From Bacteroidetes bacterium RIFCSPLOWO2_12_FULL_35_15 (GTDB lineage: Bacteria; Bacteroidota; Bacteroidia; 2-12-FULL-35-15): 64,000 bases of DNA. Where the stretch lies: assembly GCA_001769385.1 (NCBI GenBank), contig MEPB01000088.1:1-64000 (forward strand), read 5' to 3'. The position numbers and the translations under genes were made by a program. This document shows positions 15,973 through 56,495 of this stretch, in pieces. Within the stretch, counting starts at the first letter, position 1. Every line of letters begins with the position of its first letter. The notes under the pieces are model-generated. The model was not told the DNA's origin and searched no databases. It saw only the letters and a program-made list of their open reading frames with translations.

Positions 15973-16130
15973 CATTTTTCTAACAAACTACGTTTCGTAT
16001 ATTCGTACAGATTCGTATTTCGTAGATTTCTTCTCTTAATTTTTAGTGCTTACATTTCATTTTCTAACAAACAACGTTTCGTATATTCGTACTGATTCGT
16101 ATTTCGTAGATTTTTAATCTCTTAATTTTT
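15973..16130. repeat. Two direct copies of a ~72-base AT-rich unit in the ABC ATPase-permease gap
   Basis: Copies at about 15973-16044 and 16058-16130 share the run CTAACAAAC.ACGTTTCGTA, then TATTCGTAC.GATTCGTATT and TCGTAGATTT, with few differences. Together with the 16-base tandem units these fill most of the 317-base gap between the ATPase and permease genes. No gene or clear promoter was seen in the gap. Confidence 0.8.
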
Positions 16131-44224: not shown

Positions 44225-45001
44225 ATGAATAATTATAATCCAATTCCAAATCAACTGGAAAAAATCTTCAGTTACATTCTCCCTTTTTCGGTAGAACAAA
44301 AAAAAGGAGAAATTTCACCTTATCTTGAAGTCAGCCTTTATTGTGGAAAATATAAACTTAACGCGGCAAAAGTAAATTATTCCTATGGGGGATTACATTA
44401 TATTTTTGATGAAGTGTTTAATAAAATCCAATTAAAGGAAAAAAAAATTGAAAATGCTTTGATCCTTGGTTTTGGAGCAGGTAGCGTTGCCTGCTTACTG
44501 ACCGAAAAATACGATCAAAACTGTATGATCACAGGAGTTGAAAAAGATGCTGAGGTTATAGAACTTGGTCATAAATACTTTAATATTACCAGATTCAAAA
44601 AACTCAATTTGATTCATGAAGATGCTTCCGATTTTGTTTCAAAGTGTAATTTAAAATTCGATTTGATTATTGTTGATGTTTTTGTAGAAGATAATGTCCC
44701 CAAAAAATTCCATCAATTACATTTTATCCAAGGGCTCGATGAACTTCTTTCAGAAAACGGCATTTTAATTTTCAATAAGGTAATTAATAATTCGGATCAT
44801 AAAAATGAAATAAAATTACTTTCAGAAAATATAAATAATGTAATGGGAAAATGTGTTTTTCACGACATTGTTTTTTCAAATACTAAAAACTCAGTATTAA
44901 TTTTTGACCGTAAAAAAAATAATAAAAATTATCATTTGGATGAAAAATATTATGACAAGAATTACACCTCGAATTCCTTAAAAATAAAAGAACCTGTTTA
45001 A
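44225..45001 (+). CDS. Spermidine-synthase-like SAM-binding protein
   Basis: A 258-residue protein similar to SpeE-like enzymes without the propylamine partner: SYGGLHYIFDEVF at the N-terminal side, the SAM motif ALILGFGAGSVACLL, GVEKDAEVIELG, the DLIIVDVFVEDNVP segment and HQLHFIQGLDELL. Spermidine-synthase residues such as the GG.(D/E) catalytic stretch are not clearly conserved, so polyamine synthesis is doubtful. It lies between the methyltransferase pair and the MITE preceding the Ehr-like genes. Confidence 0.75.
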   Translation: MNNYNPIPNQLEKIFSYILPFSVEQKKGEISPYLEVSLYCGKYKLNAAKVNYSYGGLHYIFDEVFNKIQLKEKKIENALILGFGAGSVACLLTEKYDQNCMITGVEKDAEVIELGHKYFNITRFKKLNLIHEDASDFVSKCNLKFDLIIVDVFVEDNVPKKFHQLHFIQGLDELLSENGILIFNKVINNSDHKNEIKLLSENINNVMGKCVFHDIVFSNTKNSVLIFDRKKNNKNYHLDEKYYDKNYTSNSLKIKEPV

Positions 45002-45567: not shown

Positions 45568-45687
45568 AGGGTTGGTCACTAATACGAATAAAAAAATTAC
45601 TAACTATAAATAAAAAAAACGGTAATTGCATTTTCGTAAATTAGTAAGATTCGTTATTCGTAACCTAACTAAGTACAAATATAGTTT

Positions 45688-47685
45688 ATGCACATTACGA
45701 CTTTGTTAATTTCATCATTCCTTATTTTAATAGCTGGAATAGTCTCTATTCCTTTTATTCCATCCAATCGCAAAGGAGTTGCTAATTTTATTTTTGTTCT
45801 ATTAATTGCTGTTGTTACCTCTATACCTGCCCTCAATGCCCTTAATGGAAATCCTATCGACATTATTATTTCAGGAACATCGTTTTTAGGTAACATCCCT
45901 TTACGAATAGATGCACTTTCAGCATGGTTCATGCTCATCATTAATTTGACCTGTATCAATGGAGCACTTTATGGCATTGGTTATATGAAACCCTATCAGG
46001 AACAAAAAACAAATCTTTCATTACATTGGGTCTTGTTCCTGATTTTTCAATCTTCCATGTTATGGGTTTGTATGTTACAGCACAGTCTGGCATTTCTTGT
46101 CGCATGGGAACTCATGTCGCTTTCTTCGCTTTTATTGGTAATGTTTGAACATCATAAAATAGAAACGATTAAAGCAGGACTTAATTACCTGGTGCAAATG
46201 CATATCGGTGTTGTATTTCTGACTGTCGCATTTATCTGGGTATATTTTTCAGAAGCATCATTTGATTTTCATGGTATCAGCAGCTTTTTTAGTTCTACTA
46301 CTAATATCTGGTTGTTTCTATTATTTTTTATTGGTTTCGGTATTAAAGCAGGGTTCATTCCCTTGCACTCATGGCTTCCTCATGCTCACCCTGCAGCACC
46401 ATCGCATATTTCAGGTGTAATGTCCGGTGTAATTGTCAAACTTGGTATCTATGGGATTCTACGTGTAGCATTGATGTTGAATAGTGATTTTGTATTGATT
46501 GGCGAATCTATACTTGTATTATCAATACTTACTGGAATATATGGCATACTCAACGCTGCCATTCATCGTGATTTTAAAAAAATGCTGGCTTATTGCACCA
46601 TTGAAAACATTGGTATCATCGGAGCCGGGATAGGTCTTGCTCTTATTGGTAAAGGAATAAACAATCCTGTATTATTTGTGTTAGGATTAAGCGGAGCATT
46701 GTTACATATATTGAATCATTCTCTTTTCAAATCCCTGCTGTTTTTTTCAGCAGGTTCGGTTTATCAGCAAACTCATATCCGTGATATGGAAAAACTCGGT
46801 GGCCTGATTCATAAGATGCCACAGACTGCGGCACTTTTTCTGATTGGAGCATTGGCTATTGGTGGCTTACCACCACTCAATGGATTTGTTTCTGAATTTC
46901 TTATTTACAATGGATTTTTAAATGGAATAAAAACAATGGGATTGATGCATTCCACGCTAATGACACTTTCTTTAGCCGGATTGGCACTTATCGGAGGGTT
47001 ATCGTTACTTACGTTTACAAAGAGTTTTGGGATACTATTTCTTGGCAGCCCGCGTGAAAATTTGCATCATCAACCACAAGAAGTTTCCTGGGTGATGCGC
47101 GTTCCTCAATATATCATTATCTTGATAATGGTTTCCATTGGTGTGTTTCCACAAATTTATTTTGCCGTGGTCCTGAATTTAATAAGTTCGGTTTCTCCTT
47201 TGATTCAAATTGATTCTTCTGCCTTTCAAACAACAACATCACTTATGTCAAGTGTTGGAACATATTCTTTATTATTTTTTGCAGTACTGATTTTGGTTTT
47301 GATTGTACGAAACATTTTTGTTCGTAAGCGCCCTGCTGAATATAATTCCACCTGGGGATGCGCATACATCGCGCCAAGCAGTAAGATGCAATATACAGGG
47401 AAATCATTTTCAAAAACATTAGGTAAACTATTAGGATTTATTGTAACGGAAAAGAAAAAATTCAATGAACTTACCACACAAGAAATTTTTCCAAAAACTC
47501 GCACCCATTCATCACATTACATTGATTTTTTTGAACACAATATCATTCATCGGATAACTGACCGTTTATTACATAGTCTTAATTATTTTCAGTTTATTCA
47601 GAATGGTAAAACACAGATGTATGTATTGTATGGTGTATTTTTTATAATTATTGTTTTTTTAGGAACACTGTTTAATTTCATTTGA
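45688..47685 (+). CDS. HyfB-like antiporter-type membrane subunit 1 of the Ehr-like complex
   Basis: A 665-residue protein of the NuoL/HyfB/Mrp antiporter family with about 15 membrane helices. Key residues are in place: the helix-5 Glu (FLVAWELMSLSSLL), the Lys of IKAGFIPLHSWLPHAHPAAP and a second Lys in LNHSLFKSLLF. The C-terminal part carries the HyfB-type signature STWGCAYIAPSSKMQYTGKSF. It should pump protons or Na+. Its stop overlaps the start of a second HyfB-like gene by one base (TGATG). Confidence 0.92.
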   Translation: MHITTLLISSFLILIAGIVSIPFIPSNRKGVANFIFVLLIAVVTSIPALNALNGNPIDIIISGTSFLGNIPLRIDALSAWFMLIINLTCINGALYGIGYMKPYQEQKTNLSLHWVLFLIFQSSMLWVCMLQHSLAFLVAWELMSLSSLLLVMFEHHKIETIKAGLNYLVQMHIGVVFLTVAFIWVYFSEASFDFHGISSFFSSTTNIWLFLLFFIGFGIKAGFIPLHSWLPHAHPAAPSHISGVMSGVIVKLGIYGILRVALMLNSDFVLIGESILVLSILTGIYGILNAAIHRDFKKMLAYCTIENIGIIGAGIGLALIGKGINNPVLFVLGLSGALLHILNHSLFKSLLFFSAGSVYQQTHIRDMEKLGGLIHKMPQTAALFLIGALAIGGLPPLNGFVSEFLIYNGFLNGIKTMGLMHSTLMTLSLAGLALIGGLSLLTFTKSFGILFLGSPRENLHHQPQEVSWVMRVPQYIIILIMVSIGVFPQIYFAVVLNLISSVSPLIQIDSSAFQTTTSLMSSVGTYSLLFFAVLILVLIVRNIFVRKRPAEYNSTWGCAYIAPSSKMQYTGKSFSKTLGKLLGFIVTEKKKFNELTTQEIFPKTRTHSSHYIDFFEHNIIHRITDRLLHSLNYFQFIQNGKTQMYVLYGVFFIIIVFLGTLFNFI

Positions 47686-49727
47686 TGGGAATTATTATTA
47701 CATATCTCTTAATTTTCACAATCAGTATTCTTCTGATTCCTTTTTTCAAGGTACGAGAAAAAGGCATCATTACTATCATAGCTGTAATCATGAGTGCATG
47801 TATCAGTGGCTATATAGCCCTAAGAGCATTAATTGGGGAAACAATAGAAATTACCTTCTCAGGAACAATTATTACCGGTGAAATTCCCATTAGGATAGAT
47901 GCGCTTTCGGCATGGTTTATTTTAGTTATCAATTTTACAATTATTACCGGGGCATTATACGGGTTACAGTATATGAAATCCTATAAAGAGCAGTCCTCCA
48001 ATATCTCCTTGCATTGCATCGCTTATTTGGGAATACAGTCAATGCTTACACTAATTTGCACGATTCAGAATTCAATTGTATTTCTTTTTGCCTGGGAGAT
48101 CATGGCATTATCTTCATTCATCTTAATTATTTTTGAGCACTATAAACAGGATTGCATAAAAGCAGGGATCAATTATCTTATTCAAGCTCATGTTGCTATA
48201 GTATTTCTCTACATTGGTTTCATCTGGGTGGCATCCCGGACAAACTCATTCGATTTTAATTCAATCACAGAATTTTCAACCTCAATATCTCTTCCTACCA
48301 GTTTAGCATTGTTTCTTTGTTTCTTCATTGCCTTTGCTATTAAAGCCGGCTTCGTCCCATTTCATACATGGCTACCCTATGCACATCCTGCAGCACCTGC
48401 GCATATCTCAGGAGTAATGTCGGGTGTCATTATCAAAATTGGAATTTATGGTATTCTTAGAATGATCCTGTTGATAAAAACAGATTACATTTTAGCCGGG
48501 TTCATCATTCTTTTTATTTCTGTTATTTCAGGAGTATATGGTGTTATGCTGGCTATTTTACAACATAACCTGAAAAAACTTCTTGCTTATCATAGTATTG
48601 AAAACATTGGAATAATAGGCATTGGAATCGGATTAGGAACTATTGGAATCGGAACAAATAATTTTCTTCTTGCAACACTCGGATTTGGTGGAGGGATGTT
48701 ACATGTATTAAATCATTCACTTTTTAAATCACTTTTATTTTATGGCGCAGGAAATGTGTATCAGACTACTCACACAATGAACATTGAACATTTAGGAGGA
48801 TTAGTAAAACGGATGCCTCATTCTTCCCTATTGTTCCTGGTTGCTTCTTTAGCCATTTGCGGACTTCCACCGTTCAATGGTTTTATTTCCGAGTTCCTGA
48901 TTTATTCCGGATTATTTAAAGGAATGAATAATGGAGGTGTATTCTCCTCAATTCCTATTATGTTGACTGTTTTCGGATTAGCAATTATTGGCGGACTTGC
49001 TCTATTGTGTTTCACTAAAGCTTTTAGTTCGGTTTTTCTAGGGACTTCCAGACATCTGACATCTCATCAGCCATCAGAAGCAACTATTGGAAAACTTATT
49101 CCAATGTACCTGGTGATGGGATTAATAGTTATCATTGGTTTGTTTCCTGCTTTTTTTCTTCAGTTATTATCTGAACCATTAAAATTATTTACTAATAAAC
49201 TGCCCCTTTCTCCTATAAATCAACAAGGTTTTAAAACTCTTACTCATTTAACAGATACCATGGAATACATTGGTTGGTCTGCCATAGGATTTATTTTACT
49301 TTCGGTTTTAATTTTCTTCATTCGTAAAAAAATCATTACTAAAAAATCTGTTAGCATTTCCACAACATGGGGCTGTGCGTATGTGGGCGATACTTCTAAA
49401 ATGCAATATACAGCAAGTTCTTTTGTACGCACTTACCGTAAAATGGCTGAACCATTTTTTTCCATTCATAAAAAAAAGAAAGAAATAAAAAAAATATTCC
49501 CCGACAAAGCTTGGCACGAAACACATCCGTATGATAAGGCAGAACAATTATTTATTGATATTCCACTGAAACACATGAAATATTTTTTTGGTAAATTTCG
49601 ATTTTTGCAGAATGGGAATCCACAATTTTATATTTTGTATGGAGTAATTTTTATTGTGTTAATACTTGGTGTACCGTATTTATATGACGTACTAAAATCT
49701 TGTATTGAATTTTTAAACAACTTGTAA
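47685..49727 (+). CDS. HyfB-like antiporter-type membrane subunit 2 of the Ehr-like complex
   Basis: A 680-residue paralogue of the preceding subunit with the same landmarks: the helix-5 Glu (FLFAWEIMALSSFI), IKAGFVPFHTWLPYAHPAAP, LNHSLFKSLLFYGAGNVY and the C-terminal STWGCAYVGDTSKMQYTASSF. Hydrogenase 4 of E. coli has one HyfB plus HyfD/HyfF; here HyfB is duplicated in tandem. The 136-base gap to the HyfC-like gene is filled with ATTAGTAAATTAGTAT-type repeats. A TTG three bases upstream is a less likely start. Confidence 0.92.
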   Translation: MGIIITYLLIFTISILLIPFFKVREKGIITIIAVIMSACISGYIALRALIGETIEITFSGTIITGEIPIRIDALSAWFILVINFTIITGALYGLQYMKSYKEQSSNISLHCIAYLGIQSMLTLICTIQNSIVFLFAWEIMALSSFILIIFEHYKQDCIKAGINYLIQAHVAIVFLYIGFIWVASRTNSFDFNSITEFSTSISLPTSLALFLCFFIAFAIKAGFVPFHTWLPYAHPAAPAHISGVMSGVIIKIGIYGILRMILLIKTDYILAGFIILFISVISGVYGVMLAILQHNLKKLLAYHSIENIGIIGIGIGLGTIGIGTNNFLLATLGFGGGMLHVLNHSLFKSLLFYGAGNVYQTTHTMNIEHLGGLVKRMPHSSLLFLVASLAICGLPPFNGFISEFLIYSGLFKGMNNGGVFSSIPIMLTVFGLAIIGGLALLCFTKAFSSVFLGTSRHLTSHQPSEATIGKLIPMYLVMGLIVIIGLFPAFFLQLLSEPLKLFTNKLPLSPINQQGFKTLTHLTDTMEYIGWSAIGFILLSVLIFFIRKKIITKKSVSISTTWGCAYVGDTSKMQYTASSFVRTYRKMAEPFFSIHKKKKEIKKIFPDKAWHETHPYDKAEQLFIDIPLKHMKYFFGKFRFLQNGNPQFYILYGVIFIVLILGVPYLYDVLKSCIEFLNNL

Positions 49728-49863
49728 AATGGTTACTAATAAACGAATAATTACAAACTTACGAAAGAGTCACAAATTAGTAAATTAGTATCTATTGATT
49801 ATTAGTATCCAACCAGATTAGTAAATTAGTATTTGATTAGTTATTCGCAACTTTTGTAACCTT

Positions 49864-50769
49864 ATGATAAGTTTCACACTGATAATTATTACAAGCCTGT
49901 TCTTTACAGGTATTGTTCTCCGCACAAAGAGCATTGCATCCGGAAGAAAAGGCCCTGGAATATTTCAGCCGATGAAAGATATTTTCAGGTTATGGAAAAA
50001 GGGAGCAGTATATAGTAAAACAACCAGTTTTATTTTTCAGATTGCGCCAAGCATTTATTTTGCATCTGTACTTATGGCTATTCTGATAATACCATTCGGA
50101 CAATATAATGGAATCATTTCTTTTGATGGAGATTTTGTTTTTTTCGCCTATGTTCTGGCACTTGGAAAATTCTTCAGTATCATCTCCGCTATGGACACAG
50201 GAAGCAGTTTTGAAGGAATGGGAGCTAGCCGTGAAGCTCTTTATTCCTTACTGGCAGAACCGGCATTTTTTATTCTGATAGGTTCTTTTGCATTGTTGAC
50301 AGGACATACGTCTTTCCACGACATATTTATCTCCATTCATTTTGGATCTTATATTTCATATGCTCTTGGCATACTGGCAACTTTTGTTCTCGTAATGATC
50401 GCCATGATCGAAAACAGCCGGATGCCTGTTGATGACCCTAAAACACATCTTGAATTAACCATGATTCATGAGGTGATGATCCTTGACAATAGCGGTTTTG
50501 ATTTAGGGTTGATTCTGCATGCTACAAATCTGAAGTTTGCCATGTATGGTGCACTTATCGCAAATTTCTTCTTAGGTAATATTGAAATTTATTTTACTGT
50601 TCCTATATTTTTTGCAATTCAAATTCTCTTTGCAATAGCAGTCGGAATTCTCGAATCATTTTCAGCAAGATTCAGAATGAGTCACAATGCACAATTTATT
50701 TTCACGCTTGCATCTGTTTCTTTAATGATATTTTTCGGTGTATTGTTGGTAATTGGTAAATTTATTTAA
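49864..50769 (+). CDS. HyfC/NuoH-like membrane subunit
   Basis: A 301-residue membrane protein with the NuoH/HyfC motifs SFEGMGASREALYSLLAEPA and AMIENSRMPVDDPKTHLELT followed by MIHEVMILD. These loops connect the membrane arm to the redox subunits in complex I and group 4 hydrogenases, and they are well conserved here. That contrasts with the degenerate metal sites of the peripheral subunits. The gap to the next gene holds a palindrome (50821-50887). Confidence 0.92.
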   Translation: MISFTLIIITSLFFTGIVLRTKSIASGRKGPGIFQPMKDIFRLWKKGAVYSKTTSFIFQIAPSIYFASVLMAILIIPFGQYNGIISFDGDFVFFAYVLALGKFFSIISAMDTGSSFEGMGASREALYSLLAEPAFFILIGSFALLTGHTSFHDIFISIHFGSYISYALGILATFVLVMIAMIENSRMPVDDPKTHLELTMIHEVMILDNSGFDLGLILHATNLKFAMYGALIANFFLGNIEIYFTVPIFFAIQILFAIAVGILESFSARFRMSHNAQFIFTLASVSLMIFFGVLLVIGKFI

Positions 50770-50820
50770 TTATTCAGGATCTTTAAAATTAAGAAAATGA
50801 TGTTATTTTTAAGCAAGGGT

Positions 50821-50887
50821 GTTATTTCGATCGCAGAGAGAAATCTTTTTAATTAAAAACAAGATTTTTCATTTTGGTCGAAATGAC
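50821..50887. repeat. Degenerate TTTCGATC-type palindrome
   Basis: GTTATTTCGATCGCAGAGAG and following bases (50821-50847) pair imperfectly with AAGATTTTTCATTTTGGTCG and following bases (50861-50887). It is a diverged copy of the hairpin nested in the 45060-45216 element and lies between the HyfC- and HyfE-like genes. Confidence 0.65.
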
Positions 50888-50934
50888 ATAAAAAAAAATT
50901 AAAAATTGAAACTACACATTTATAAACCAAAAAA

Positions 50935-51564
50935 ATGGTAAACGTATTGCTAATTACATTCGCTATCACGCTTCTATACCTAAGCATAGCTAACAGGCTA
51001 CTGAGTATCATCAAGATCCTTGCTTTTCAGGGATTACTTTTATTTGGCGTCAGTTTCATTGAACTGAATGAAATAAATTCAATTAACCTAACTTTCATTT
51101 TATTGGAAACCATCATTTTCAAAACCATTGCAGTCCCTTTGTTTCTGAATTATGTCATCAAACGAAATAACATCAGCAGGGAAGCGGAACCTTTTTTGTC
51201 TAATTTTATTTCATTAGTTATTGTTACACTTATTATTACAGTTACATTCCTGCTTTCAAACACAATTACGGATATACATCTGAATAAAATTTATTTTGTA
51301 GCGGCACTTTCAGGCTTATTTACAGGTTTGTATATTATCATGTCACGAAGGAAGATCATTACCCATGTTATGGGATTTCTGGTGATTGAAAATGGAGTTT
51401 TTATCTTGTCACTTGCAGTTGGGAATGAAATGCCTATGCTGGTTAACACAGGAATATTGCTCGATCTTTTTGTAAGCGTTCTGGTACTTGGAATTTTTGT
51501 GAATAAAATTGGAGATGTACTTAAAGATGTGAATGTGGATCAGTTACAAAATTTAAAAGATTAG
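50935..51564 (+). CDS. HyfE/NuoK-like membrane subunit
   Basis: A 209-residue hydrophobic protein with about six to seven helices. The second half matches HyfE/NuoK (GLYIIMSRRKIITHVMGFLV, VIENGVFILSLAVG, with the conserved Glu). E. coli HyfE is of similar length. It stands 39 bases before the HyfF-like gene. Confidence 0.88.
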   Translation: MVNVLLITFAITLLYLSIANRLLSIIKILAFQGLLLFGVSFIELNEINSINLTFILLETIIFKTIAVPLFLNYVIKRNNISREAEPFLSNFISLVIVTLIITVTFLLSNTITDIHLNKIYFVAALSGLFTGLYIIMSRRKIITHVMGFLVIENGVFILSLAVGNEMPMLVNTGILLDLFVSVLVLGIFVNKIGDVLKDVNVDQLQNLKD

Positions 51565-51603
51565 AGTGGTAAACACAAAATCAAACTTTAAAAAGATAAA
51601 AGT

Positions 51604-53034
51604 ATGATCGGGGAATATTTAATAGGAACAATCATTATTAGTATGCTGCTGTTTTTTAACAGGAGCCGCTTGGTGAATTATATTCTTGTTACGATTTTTT
51701 TAGTGATGCAATGGGTTTTCACAGTGTATGAATACAACCATCGTAACATCGATGAGTTTTACGACTTATTTAAACCTGATGCTTTAGCAATTCTGTTGTT
51801 GATTACGCTTAGTATCATTGCAATACCCGCTTATTACCATAGCTATGTTTATTTTTTAAAAAACAAAGAAATTCCCAGGGAAAGAGCTATTTATTTTTCT
51901 GCAATGACACTATTAATTGCTGCCATTTCTGCTGCATACCTTTCCAATCACATCGCTGTAACATGGATTTTTGTTGAATTGACAACACTTTCAGCATCAG
52001 CGCTTATTTATCACCGCAGAAATAATCGTTCGTTAGAAGGTACCTGGAAATATATTTTTGTCTGCTCCATCAGCATCACATTTGTGTTTATTGGAATTTT
52101 ATTTCTCAGTATCGCCATGCAACAGGCAGGACACTCCGATCTTTCGTTCCCGGCCTTAATAAGCAATGCTGGCTCCTTAAATGTTTTTTGGCTTCGCTTA
52201 GCTTTTCTCTTTATTTTCACGGGCTTTACCGCTAAACTTGGTCTGGTCCCCATGTACACTGCCGGGATTGATGCAAAAGATAAAGCTCCATCACCTGCCG
52301 GTGCACTCTTTTCCAGCGTATTGATGAATGTCGGCTTTATTGGAATTTTTCGCTTTTACGAAATAATTGCAACCACATCCATCCATGTATGGGCAAATCA
52401 TATTTTGATCATCGCATCTTTGCTTTCTGTTTTTGTCGCTGCGGTTTATATGCTCAAAGTAAAAAACATTAAAAGGATGCTGGCTTATTCCAGCATTGAA
52501 CATACAGGAATTGTTATGCTGGGGATTGCAGCTGGTGGAATTGGGTATTATGCTGCCATCCTGCATATTGTGTTACATGCTTTCGCGAAATCAAGTATGT
52601 TTTTTCAGATGGGCCAGGTATATCGGATCTACAAAAGCAAAAATATTTACGATGTTGGAAATTATTTTAAATACAACTTTACCGGAACAATAGTAATCTT
52701 GCTTGCTTTTATTTGCTCAACAGCAATGCCTCCTTCAGGACTTTTCATTAGCGAATTTATGATTTTCAGAGCACTCTTTGAAGCTCATTATCTTTTTGTT
52801 TTAATTGTTCTTTTAATTTTACTTACCATCATCATCTGGGCATTCGGAAAAAATATTTTTAAACTTTTGTTTACTCCAGCGGTTGGTTTCAATGAAGAAT
52901 GTGTAGAAAAAATCAATCCATATGAATCGATCTCCCAGTTTATTTTATTAGGTCTAGTTATTTATCTGGGCATTAACCCACCGGATCAGTTTGTAGAATT
53001 AATTAACGAATCAATAAAAAATTTACCGCATTAA
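51604..53034 (+). CDS. HyfF-like antiporter-type membrane subunit
   Basis: A 476-residue antiporter-type subunit, shorter than the HyfB-like pair and without their C-terminal extension. Landmarks: TWIFVELTTLSASALIYHRR with the helix-5 Glu, FTGFTAKLGLVPMYTAGIDA with the Lys, KRMLAYSSIEHTGIVMLGIA and LHAFAKSSMFFQMGQVY. With the two HyfB paralogues it gives the complex three putative ion-translocating subunits, as in complex I (L, M, N). It is 47 bases upstream of the HyfG-like gene. Confidence 0.92.
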   Translation: MIGEYLIGTIIISMLLFFNRSRLVNYILVTIFLVMQWVFTVYEYNHRNIDEFYDLFKPDALAILLLITLSIIAIPAYYHSYVYFLKNKEIPRERAIYFSAMTLLIAAISAAYLSNHIAVTWIFVELTTLSASALIYHRRNNRSLEGTWKYIFVCSISITFVFIGILFLSIAMQQAGHSDLSFPALISNAGSLNVFWLRLAFLFIFTGFTAKLGLVPMYTAGIDAKDKAPSPAGALFSSVLMNVGFIGIFRFYEIIATTSIHVWANHILIIASLLSVFVAAVYMLKVKNIKRMLAYSSIEHTGIVMLGIAAGGIGYYAAILHIVLHAFAKSSMFFQMGQVYRIYKSKNIYDVGNYFKYNFTGTIVILLAFICSTAMPPSGLFISEFMIFRALFEAHYLFVLIVLLILLTIIIWAFGKNIFKLLFTPAVGFNEECVEKINPYESISQFILLGLVIYLGINPPDQFVELINESIKNLPH

Positions 53035-53081
53035 AAACTAATGAAATTGGAATAATTTGATAATATGTTAATGAACCAACC

Positions 53082-54578
53082 ATGAATCACACAATTGTAA
53101 AAAATAATCAGTGTATTCCGGTATCGTCAATCCCTGTATTGGACTACGAACGATTTCTGGAACATAATATTTCTTTTCTTCGCGAAGAACATTACCACTG
53201 TGTTAATTTTTATGGAATCCAACACAAGGAAAAAATTAAATTAATTTGTTGCATTGCTAATGATAATGATGCTACTATAAATGTTTCTTCTTCAATTGTA
53301 GAAAGTAAACAAACATTACCTTCATTTAGCCAACATCATTTTTCTTTTCATATTTTTGAACGTGAAATTCACGAAAATTTTGAAATCAATTATACTGACC
53401 ATCCCTGGCTCAAACCTCTCCGGTTCTCTTTCAACAGGCCAAACAATAATAATACGATTGCCAATTATCCTTTTTTAAAAATTGACAGTGAAGAGTTACA
53501 CGAGGTGGGTGTTGGTCCGATCCATGCAGGAATAATTGAACCCGGACATTTCAGATTTATTTGTAATGGAGAACAGATCCTTCATCTTGAAATACAATTA
53601 GGTTTCCAACACCGGGGAATTGAAACTCTTTTTCTGGAAAAGAAAAAACTGTTACAACGAACCGCTCTCGCTGAAAGCATAGCTGGAGATACAGTTACAG
53701 GGCATACCACCGCATTCGTTAATCTTTGGGAAAGTTTATGTAATTACAAAACTGAACCTGATCTGCAATTCGCAAGAACCATCGCTTTGGAACTTGAACG
53801 CATAGCAATTCATACAGGAGATTTAAGCGCTATGTGTACCGATGTTGCTTATCAATTAGGCAGTTCAGTATATGGCAGGTTAAGAACTCCTGTTATCAAT
53901 TATTTTCAGGTATGGTGTGGGAACCGCCTTGCTAAAGGTTTAATTCGCCCGGGAAAAAACAATTTTTCATTTAATAAAATACTGGGTGATTCTCTAATTA
54001 AGATTTTTGATGAATATGAGCCTGATTTTAATGAGATCAGTTCCATGACATTTACACTTCCGACAGTGCTTGCCCGCTTTGAAAAAACAGGAGTGTTAAC
54101 TCCCGAACATGCTGCTTCCATTGGCGCAGTAGGAATGATTGCAAGAACAAGCGGTATCAATCGCGATATAAGAACATCACATCCTCATGATTTTTATTCT
54201 ACACTCCATCATCAGGCAATTATAAAACGCCATGGCGATGTTTATTCACGGGCACAAATTCGCAAAGAAGAAATCTTACAATCAATAAAATATATCCGAG
54301 AACTAACTAAAACTATTCCTGAAGAAAATAAAAACAGAAAACCCTTGAACCCACCAATGCCGGATTCTTTTGCCATATCACTGGTGGAAGGATGGAGAGG
54401 TGAAATATGCCACTGTGCAATTACTGATGAACAAGGGGAATTAATGCACTATAAAGTGAAAGACCCATCGCTGCATAATTGGTTGGGTCTGGCTTTGGCG
54501 GTGCGTAACAATGAAATTTCTGATTTTCCGATTTGCAATAAAAGTTTTGATTTATCCTATTGCGGGCATGACCTATAA
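53082..54578 (+). CDS. HyfG/NuoCD-like large subunit without NiFe ligands
   Basis: A 498-residue fusion of a NuoC-like N-terminal domain (about 1-120, ending DHPWLKPLRF) and a NuoD/large-hydrogenase domain. The GVGPIHAGIIEPGHFRF and QLGFQHRGIETL segments are conserved. In the L1 motif, where group 4 hydrogenases have RxCxxC, it reads ESIAGDTVTGH: Ala201 and Thr204 replace the Cys pair. At the C-terminal L2 motif (DPCxxC) it reads FDLSYCGHDL: Ser492 and Gly495, with one Cys displaced by one residue. It therefore cannot hold a NiFe centre in the normal way; the reaction is unknown. Confidence 0.9.
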   Translation: MNHTIVKNNQCIPVSSIPVLDYERFLEHNISFLREEHYHCVNFYGIQHKEKIKLICCIANDNDATINVSSSIVESKQTLPSFSQHHFSFHIFEREIHENFEINYTDHPWLKPLRFSFNRPNNNNTIANYPFLKIDSEELHEVGVGPIHAGIIEPGHFRFICNGEQILHLEIQLGFQHRGIETLFLEKKKLLQRTALAESIAGDTVTGHTTAFVNLWESLCNYKTEPDLQFARTIALELERIAIHTGDLSAMCTDVAYQLGSSVYGRLRTPVINYFQVWCGNRLAKGLIRPGKNNFSFNKILGDSLIKIFDEYEPDFNEISSMTFTLPTVLARFEKTGVLTPEHAASIGAVGMIARTSGINRDIRTSHPHDFYSTLHHQAIIKRHGDVYSRAQIRKEEILQSIKYIRELTKTIPEENKNRKPLNPPMPDSFAISLVEGWRGEICHCAITDEQGELMHYKVKDPSLHNWLGLALAVRNNEISDFPICNKSFDLSYCGHDL

Positions 54579-54580
54579 TA

Positions 54581-54672
54581 CTACGAATTACGAATAAAAA
54601 CGAATTACGAAAATTAAACCGGACTATTAATGAAAAACAATATTTGTAATTCGAGAAATTCGTAATTCGTAG
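54581..54672. repeat. Inverted repeat CTACGAATTACGAA in the HyfG-HyfI gap
   Basis: CTACGAATTACGAA (54581-54594) and TTCGTAATTCGTAG (54659-54672) are exact reverse complements; another ACGAATTACGAA lies at 54599-54610. Similar TTCGTA/ATTAGTAA stretches occur at 15973-16130, 45576-45665 and 49729-49860. The start of the HyfI-like gene follows 20 bases later. Confidence 0.7.
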
Positions 54673-54692
54673 AATAATAAAATGAAAGAACT

Positions 54693-55442
54693 ATGTTTAA
54701 CAACTTAAAAATACTGTATCATCAAGGGAAACAATATATTCCTGATATAACAAAAGCTACTGTTCCTGGGGTTTTCCGAGGAAGGCCAATAATAAGTTCC
54801 GAAAAAATAAACGAGAATGAATTGATTGAATTATGCCCTACAGGTGCCATTTCCTCAAATCCCATTCGTATTGATTTAGGAAAATGTACCTTTTGCGGTG
54901 AATGTGCTTTTACATTTCCAGAAAAAATTCAATTTACTTCCGATTATAAAATAGCTGCGAATGAACGTGGACAGCTTGTCATTAAAGAAGGAGAAGATAA
55001 GCTGATGGTGCTAAATCCTGATTTGATTCGAAATGAGATCTCAAAATATTTCAGCGGTTCACTCAAGCTACGCCAGGTTTGTGCCGGGGGCGATGGGAGT
55101 AACGAGTTGGAATTGAATGCTTGCGGAAATGTGAATTTTGATATGGGACGCTTCGGCATTGAGTTTGTCGCTTCACCGCGCCATGCTGATGGAATTGTTA
55201 TCACCGGACCTATCACGGAAAATATGGCGGAACCTTTACAAATTTGTTATGATGCCATACCTGAACCTAAACTGATTATCCTTGCAGGAACAGATGCTAT
55301 CAGTTCCGGAATATTTGAAGGAAGTGCAGCTTTGAATCGAAATTTTTTGAGTAAATACAAAATTGATTTATTCGTTCCGGGAAATCCAATTCATCCTTTA
55401 ACATTTGTAAATGGAGTCTTGGATCTGATTAAAAAAAGATGA
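54693..55442 (+). CDS. Ferredoxin domain fused to a HyfI/NuoB-like small subunit with a degenerate proximal cluster
   Basis: A 249-residue protein. Residues about 40-80 are ferredoxin-like with ELCPTGAI (Cys48) and CTFCGEC (Cys65, 68, 71). The other four cysteines of a two-cluster ferredoxin are gone (no CxxCxxC before CPTGA, and Phe75 replaces the last Cys), so exactly one [4Fe-4S] site can form. Residues about 125-249 match HyfI/NuoB (GPITENMAEPLQICY, AGTDAISSGIFEG). The proximal-cluster ligands are largely lost: Cys130 remains, but Gly133, Asp201 and Asn231 stand where Cys is expected. Electron transfer to a large-subunit site is therefore doubtful. Confidence 0.88.
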   Translation: MFNNLKILYHQGKQYIPDITKATVPGVFRGRPIISSEKINENELIELCPTGAISSNPIRIDLGKCTFCGECAFTFPEKIQFTSDYKIAANERGQLVIKEGEDKLMVLNPDLIRNEISKYFSGSLKLRQVCAGGDGSNELELNACGNVNFDMGRFGIEFVASPRHADGIVITGPITENMAEPLQICYDAIPEPKLIILAGTDAISSGIFEGSAALNRNFLSKYKIDLFVPGNPIHPLTFVNGVLDLIKKR

Positions 55443-55457
55443 AAGGAATAATCAGAT

Positions 55458-56495
55458 TTATTTGTACCCGGAGCTGTTCACTAAAAAATCTGCAATCTTT
55501 TCCAGTTTTTCATCCTTTTTTTCCGCAGCAACAATTCCTGCTTCTTTTAAGGCTTGCATATTTTCACTTGAAGCATTATCCATCTCAGGAACAGCTTCCC
55601 CTAATTCAGGATTAATTCGAATATAATTATCGCTACGATCTATCGCATCAAATATTTGTTTCAATTGAAAATCTATTGTATCTGTTGCTCCCGACATCAT
55701 AATATCTAAAACCGGCTGGATCCAACCCAAAGAACCCCACCCTTTTGCTTTTTCATAATCATAAGATCGCTTTTTGGAACCTGTACCAATAGAAACAATG
55801 AACATATCCATTGCTGTAACATTTTTAGAGCCGTTCTCACGTTTGAATTGCTGACGAGCTTCAGCATAAGCGCATAATGCAGGATTGTTTGCGAATACGC
55901 CACCATCAACCAAAGGATATGATACACCTGAAAAAGAATGTGCCCTAGCAGGTTCAAAATAAGTTGGTGCGGCAGAAGTAGCTCTTGCGACATCACTTAT
56001 CAGATAATCATATGAAGGTTTTTCTTTTGCGTCATGTTGTGTAAAAAAATGAGCAGCCCGAGTGAAAATATTATAAGATGGAATAATACAAGGACGCAAT
56101 AATTGACTTAATTTTTTTTCCTTGAAGTATTTTTTCAATAGCTTTTCTAATGATTCAACTGAATATTTTTCATCGGTTAAACCTCCCAATGAAAATAACT
56201 TATGTCGGATATCATCAACAAAAATATCCTTCCCATTTTCTAAATAAAGGTCAACAGCCTCTTGTGCAGAGAATTGAGGGCGACCAGGATTATTTTCATC
56301 CGGACATAAGTATAAACAAGTCAAAATTCCACCCGTACTTGTACCTGCGATCATATCAAAATAATCAGCAATCCTGGCATTCGGATTATTCGACTTCGTT
56401 TGTAATTTTTTTTCTAATGCAACTATTATTTGCCCAGGCAAAACACCTCGTATTCCACCTCCATCAATTGATAAAATGCGTACTAACTTAGACAT
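55458..56495 (-). CDS. Patatin-like phospholipase
   Basis: A 345-residue protein with the patatin catalytic set: oxyanion loop DGGGIRGVLPG, nucleophile elbow AGTSTGG (Ser) and the catalytic Asp in LVDGGVFANNPA. It lacks signal peptide and membrane helices, so it is cytoplasmic, with a helical C-terminal part. It is probably a lipid acyl hydrolase. A CBASS-type CapV role is not supported because no cyclase gene is adjacent. Its 3' end faces the HyfI-like gene with 15 bases between the stops. Confidence 0.9.
   Translation of the reverse strand: MSKLVRILSIDGGGIRGVLPGQIIVALEKKLQTKSNNPNARIADYFDMIAGTSTGGILTCLYLCPDENNPGRPQFSAQEAVDLYLENGKDIFVDDIRHKLFSLGGLTDEKYSVESLEKLLKKYFKEKKLSQLLRPCIIPSYNIFTRAAHFFTQHDAKEKPSYDYLISDVARATSAAPTYFEPARAHSFSGVSYPLVDGGVFANNPALCAYAEARQQFKRENGSKNVTAMDMFIVSIGTGSKKRSYDYEKAKGWGSLGWIQPVLDIMMSGATDTIDFQLKQIFDAIDRSDNYIRINPELGEAVPEMDNASSENMQALKEAGIVAAEKKDEKLEKIADFLVNSSGYK

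Follow-up and report, generated by a model that had tools for sequence, protein, structure and literature searches.

What drives a complex I-type ion pump from which the usual redox cofactors have disappeared? How electron transfer at N2, the proximal [4Fe-4S] cluster, drives proton pumping more than 100 Å away is a central open question for complex I. The window analysed here, a 64,000-nucleotide stretch of DNA on contig C88 of a 5.39 Mb, 99% complete Bacteroidota genome, encodes a relative that has lost N2 and kept both the key pump residues and the large-subunit pocket. It thus constitutes a natural experiment, the driver of which is not N2 reduction. Seven plus-strand ORFs (45688-55442) encode homologues of HyfB, HyfB, HyfC, HyfE, HyfF, HyfG and HyfI, and are listed here with one upstream gene.

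44225-45001, + strand: spermidine-synthase-like protein (PF01564, 49.6 bits), upstream of hyfB and a doubtful member of the system
45688-47685, + strand: first of two HyfB-like antiporter subunits (copy 1, 665 aa), which matches NCBIfam hydrogenase 4 subunit B at 508 bits, with E141, K220, K251, H344, K348 and E403 conserved
47682-49727, + strand: second HyfB-like subunit (copy 2, 681 aa, TTG start; NCBIfam, 482 bits), 47% identical to copy 1
49864-50769, + strand: HyfC/NuoH-like subunit (301 aa; PF00146, 111 bits), with E124, E132, E183, D190, E197 and E203 invariant in 37 homologues
50935-51564, + strand: HyfE-like subunit (209 aa; NCBIfam hydrogenase 4 membrane subunit, 65.6 bits)
51604-53034, + strand: HyfF-like antiporter subunit (476 aa; PF00361, 141 bits), with E125, K211, K290 and K329 conserved
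53082-54578, + strand: HyfG-like large subunit with a fused 30-kDa domain (498 aa; PF00346, PF00329), aligned to HycE, MbhL, Nqo4 and 39 Bacteroidota relatives
54693-55442, + strand: HyfI-like small subunit with an N-terminal ferredoxin domain (249 aa; PF01058, 60.5 bits)

The operon contains no electron-input subunit, and no ORF for an NADH-input module (NuoEFG) is found between 44225 and 56495. Two further complex I-type loci in the same genome served as controls.

A group 4-type large subunit without NiFe ligands, a HyfB/C/E/F-type arm and a HyfI-type small subunit place the complex close to the energy-converting-hydrogenase-related (Ehr) complexes, as the first-pass annotation of this DNA had proposed. 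Ehr complexes are HyfBCEFGI-type assemblies that lack NiFe ligands and whose function is unknown (PMC6349859, PMC10284858, PMC4378227). The window complex shares with them this subunit set and the absence of [NiFe] CxxC motifs, but differs in the loss of the HyfI N2 ligands, in the one-cluster ferredoxin domain fused to HyfI and in its tandem HyfB. Intact N2 ligands, although usual among the Ehr relatives compared and missing here, are not stated as Ehr-defining in the literature found. Tandem HyfB is also present in L073 and in L080-L082, apparently having an independent origin in the latter three. By sequence, E. coli formate hydrogenlyase/hydrogenase-4 (HycE/HycG; 7z0s) is the best solved relative of HyfG, HyfB and HyfC, and in fold searches HycE/HycG are nearest to HyfG and HyfI; in contrast to that enzyme, the window complex has neither a [NiFe] site nor N2, and its operon lacks the FdhF/HycB partners. 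The membrane-bound sulfane reductase MBS/Mbx (6u8y) is likewise a group 4 relative without a NiFe centre. MBS, however, is described as a redox enzyme with a chain of clusters, and in the window complex the chain is cut.

Alignment of HyfG to E. coli HycE (7z0s_E), P. furiosus MbhL and relatives puts A201/T204 (L1) and S492/G495 (L2) at the [NiFe] cysteine positions. Both CxxC pairs characteristic of group 4 [NiFe] hydrogenases are therefore replaced, exactly as first annotated. The quinone site, which that annotation had overlooked, has gone as well: His38 and Tyr87 of Nqo4, quinone-site residues of complex I, correspond to I152 and G202, so that in place of the quinone His/Tyr and N2 ligands of a respiratory complex I there are I152/G202 and, in HyfI, D/N/D/N. 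The alignments of both subunits reveal no expected cysteine at a shifted position. Cys494 of HyfG was rejected as a shifted ligand, being Ala or Ser in 16 of the 39 Bacteroidota relatives, as was C130 of HyfI, which is private to the window and Ser or Asp in aligned relatives; nor was any conserved new Cys or His found to replace the lost ligands.

What remains in HyfG is a strongly conserved pocket. H148, E153, H156, R158, G202, D203, N486, K487, S488, S492, Y493 and D497 are common to all or nearly all members, and most of the conserved residues recur in plasmid-borne Ehr of Proteobacteria, Deinococcota and Actinomycetota. Residues G202, N486, K487, S488, S492, Y493 and D497 are of Ehr type, being present even in those plasmid complexes, whereas E153, H156 and R158 are also found in HycE and are thus not Ehr-specific. 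Among the 39 Bacteroidota relatives no HyfG column separates N2-less from N2-bearing members; the pocket is thus kept regardless of N2. AlphaFold models built from 9-row alignments are of moderate confidence (mean pLDDT 68 for HyfG and 72 for HyfI, but less than 50 for the pocket and for the loops that would carry the ligands), and no pocket geometry was derived from them.

In HyfI, alignment to the SCNGC motif of MbhJ and to relatives shows that all four N2 cysteines are gone, their columns being occupied by D134, N137, D201 and N231; the proximal [4Fe-4S] ligands of a group 4 [NiFe] hydrogenase small subunit are accordingly absent. The first-pass annotation had counted three replacements out of four: Asp201 and Asn231 were correctly identified, but Gly133 was off by one, the true ligand columns being 134 and 137. 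It had also missed that in the N-terminal ferredoxin domain the ligands of only one cluster are left (C48, C65, C68 and C71). In Thermus Nqo9, which has the two-cluster pattern, C63 binds N6b together with C98, C101 and C104; by this standard pattern we take C48 with C65xxC68xxC71 to form one complete N6b-type cluster. These four cysteines are invariant across all aligned Bacteroidota HyfI, whereas every one of the N6a-type ligands is absent from the window protein. Of the N2-less members, L067 retains an N6a-type motif. A separate Ehr branch (L084, L086, L087, L126, L129 and L130) has lost the N6a-type cluster and kept N2. The N6a-type and N2 clusters can go in either order, the N6b-type cluster alone being always retained. 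The latter could have a role in structure or in regulation (sensing redox state or iron), or be the sign of a residual redox activity. Overall, the alignments show the predicted electron wire to be interrupted at the outer cluster (N6a, in the window), at N2 and at the catalytic/quinone site.

The predicted ion-translocating arm, on the other hand, is intact. The claim that its ion-pump residues remain is borne out in 37-44 homologues, where the HyfB residues listed above (copy 1 numbering) are conserved for both copies, as are those listed for HyfF and the charged ones of HyfC. The sole change seen is the replacement of Asp296 by Asn in HyfB copy 2.

Relatives were gathered from genomes at the level of the window's genus, order and phylum and from GTDB contigs, and their neighbourhoods were fetched; the survey of N2 state covered Bacteroidota genomes and plasmids. 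The N2 columns of 39 Bacteroidota HyfI read CCCC in 27, and 12 are N2-less (the window, L065-L074 and L121), with at least three ligands replaced in all 12 genomes and four of four in the window. This group has D (11) or S at position 134, D (11) or H at 201, and N (10), F or S at 231; at 137 seven members still have C, and the rest have D, N or Q. Besides 134, 201 and 231, the only HyfI columns that split the two groups are two neighbours, 200 and 233. In a tree of HyfG, a protein independent of HyfI, the 12 loci form a single clade (support 94/94), nested among N2-bearing loci and with L075/L122-L124 as its sister group; this tree was built without the literature reference Ehr sequences, and in it the window HyfG falls among Bacteroidota loci that possess N2 but no NiFe ligands. 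Since the N2-less loci form one clade on this separate tree, N2 was probably lost a single time and never regained, and since HyfG identity within the clade falls to about 50%, the loss would be old. Comparison with near relatives gives dN/dS of 0.06-0.08 for hyfI and hyfG, these ratios being rough as dS is near saturation. The same three replacements recur throughout a clade of 12 genomes that is under purifying selection, which is more than chance would give. An error of sequencing or of the metagenome-assembled genome was rejected, as the loss is seen in 12 genomes.

A possible partner emerged from the gene neighbourhoods. When neighbouring ORFs were clustered, the recurrent component resolved by Pfam into a SulP permease (PF00916) and a PTS EIIA-2 domain protein of about 224 aa. 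SulP adjoins Ehr in 14 of 31 Ehr genomes, against 0.12 expected within 3 kb (23 strong SulP genes in total); as the 31 genomes are related, the independent events are fewer (three or four layouts), yet still far above expectation. The arrangements are as follows.

SulP-EIIA-hyfB: L076, L077, L079, L083, L085, L127 and L131-L133
hyfI-SulP-porin-like barrel: L075 and L122-L124
hyfI-SulP: L067 (N2-less)
SulP-STAS-EIIA fusion inside the Ehr operon, between hyfG and hyfI: L089:6939-9140
DabB-DabA (DabA, 734 bits), SulP and a porin-like gene beside an N2-less Ehr: L068
181-aa protein that resembles a SulP C-terminal portion and overlaps hyfI at its end: L065 (N2-less)

The best solved match of the hyfI-linked SulP of L067 is PDB 6ki1, the bicarbonate transporter BicA. 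No SulP lies beside the window's own Ehr operon. Elsewhere in the same genome, an island (G000:C106, L135:2561-12003) carries beta-carbonic anhydrase, SulP, SulP, beta-carbonic anhydrase, DabA and DabB, in that order; its SulPs are about 37-42% identical to most hyfI-linked SulPs.

The association is one of position. Within family f18 (79 genomes), no association was seen between Ehr and SulP (9/16 vs 25/63, p 0.27) or between Ehr and beta-carbonic anhydrase (8/16 vs 25/63, p 0.57), the N2-less genome G044 (100% complete) contains no SulP, beta-carbonic anhydrase or DabA, and seven plasmid Ehr loci from other phyla have no SulP, carbonic anhydrase or DabA neighbours within 11 kb. The SulP link is therefore positional in Bacteroidota, with no obligatory co-occurrence. 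Three proposals were rejected: that Ehr substitutes for beta-carbonic anhydrase where the latter is absent, given the lack of association in f18; that DabA is a general partner, given its absence from the whole of f18 and the fact that just 2 of 16 further Ehr genomes have it; and that SulP is an obligatory partner, given that G044 and several other genomes lack it.

A precedent exists for a redox-free device of this type. The DAB2 (DabA-DabB) complex for vectorial CO2 hydration contains a NuoL-type subunit and is coupled to the proton motive force without redox chemistry (PMC13144422). It resembles what is proposed for the window complex in these respects, and DabAB genes adjoin one N2-less Ehr (L068), but the window's subunits include neither DabA nor a carbonic-anhydrase fold. 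The CO2-hydrating complex I of cyanobacteria, NDH-1MS, is similarly a complex I-type machine tied to inorganic carbon; unlike the window complex, in which neither feature is seen, it is ferredoxin-driven and has a Cup protein. The window operon encodes no DabA or CupA/B carbonic-anhydrase-like subunit, and DabAB is merely a neighbour in L068. In A. caldus, hyf lies beside a beta-carbonic anhydrase gene, and hyf has been found with carbon-fixation genes (PMC3826726). These hyf clusters and the redox-free DAB2 are the nearest hints in the literature. Neither an N2-less Ehr nor an Ehr-SulP link was found described in the accessible literature, outside which the founding Ehr paper lies, and novelty is therefore uncertain.

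The explanation that we favour, to which we would give an even chance, is that the window encodes a non-redox, ion-gradient-coupled Ehr of HyfBCEFGI type, belonging to a Bacteroidota subclade in which N2 has been permanently lost, with bicarbonate supply as a possible function. Its redox-free part is fairly firm, and the substrate is a lead. Delivery of electrons to the HyfG pocket via HyfI at useful rates would be impossible, and the complex would run without N2-mediated redox chemistry. Instead, ion flow through HyfB/B/F/E/C might be coupled to a cycle of binding or conformational change at the HyfG-HyfI interface, with the Asp/Asp/Asn side chains replacing N2 as a protonatable or cation-binding trigger. 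Position 201, formerly Cys and now Asp in 11 of the 12 N2-less HyfI, marks the place that N2 would occupy beside the large-subunit pocket; joined there by Asp134 and Asn231, Asp201 could contribute to a site that gives the electrostatic signal given elsewhere by N2. The cargo might be an inorganic anion, most likely bicarbonate/CO2, handled together with SulP-type permeases, a model that would follow other inorganic-carbon machines coupled to the proton motive force; SulP cargo may also be sulfate or other anions. A more specific version, in which one event turned the terminal cluster into a carboxylate site (Asp/Asp/Asn), since conserved, and so gave a redox-free machine that is driven by an ion gradient and cooperates with SulP permeases in supplying bicarbonate/CO2, is tentative, and we consider it rather doubtful. 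As the pocket is the same with and without N2, the simplest corollary is that its job in N2-bearing Ehr would be N2-independent too; were the carboxylate-site version true, the usual N2-bearing Ehr would need no redox chemistry at the large-subunit pocket.

The first-pass annotation had suggested a non-redox or a ferredoxin-only role. The former is supported by these results; the latter is weakened, since the N6b-type cluster is isolated, without N2 or, in the window, an outer cluster. Nevertheless, the strict conservation of that cluster weighs against the favoured explanation, as a fully redox-free machine has no obvious need of it. This invariance would be accommodated if the complex were still a redox enzyme. 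The N6b-type cluster would then be reduced by ferredoxin or some other donor and pass electrons to an acceptor by a different route, for instance through a new cofactor bound at the Asp/Asn positions or through a partner protein in place of N2. The Cys that some members keep at position 137 and the N6a-type motif of L067 also favour such a route. However, the window's HyfI has lost every N2 cysteine and lacks an N6a motif, its operon encodes no electron-input subunit, and HyfG, stripped of NiFe and quinone ligands, has gained no conserved Cys or His in exchange; we regard continued redox activity as unlikely.

The complex might alternatively be a plain cation/proton antiporter, reverted to an Mrp-like multisubunit Na+ or K+/H+ exchanger for ion and pH homeostasis with the peripheral arm as its gate or regulator. 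An intact HyfB/B/F/E/C arm with HyfB in two copies would suit such a role, as would the EIIA(Ntr)-like regulator encoded between SulP and hyfB in relatives and the kdpA gene that adjoins one N2-bearing locus (L075), but the strict conservation of the HyfG pocket and the SulP link would be left unexplained, and we judge this reading unlikely. That the cofactors were lost through decay of a dispensable Ehr is highly improbable: the patchy presence of the operon, which within the window's order is limited to 2 species out of 36, is what such decay might produce, yet most members have full operons, the specific Asp/Asp/Asn replacements recur in 10-11 of 12, and the divergence of HyfG across the clade makes the loss an old one. 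The low dN/dS, together with the conservation, led us to reject a decaying operon or pseudogene.

The long-standing question of Ehr function thereby becomes open to testing, since the pocket is kept whether or not N2 is present and Ehr genes have SulP, porin, EIIA and in one case DabAB genes as neighbours. These neighbours point to the handling of an anion or of inorganic carbon rather than hydrogen.

Some minor observations concern the locus and its relatives. AT-rich palindromic intergenic elements are centred around TTCGTAATTCGTA (54574-54679, 45650-45662 and 16012-16108); the window has 6 matches with at most one mismatch, against 0.07 expected, one of them between hyfG and hyfI. Convergent to the operon, at 55458-56495, is a gene for a patatin-like phospholipase, which scores 197.5 against a cut-off of 200 with a CBASS lipase model. 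Two small genes (74 and 102 aa) lie between hyfF and hyfG at L069:8991-9523 and by eye resemble a RelB/RelE-type toxin-antitoxin pair. Two Burkholderiales plasmids, one from Variovorax (L109) and one from Paraburkholderia (L114), carry genes of the same spermidine-synthase-like annotation as that in the window directly upstream of an Ehr hyfB, though at only 23% identity. The former, plasmid 3 of Variovorax sp. PBL-E5, carries two different Ehr operons in tandem (L109:5845-23368), the first of which encodes a ferredoxin-fused HyfI with N2 intact and 51% identity to the window protein.
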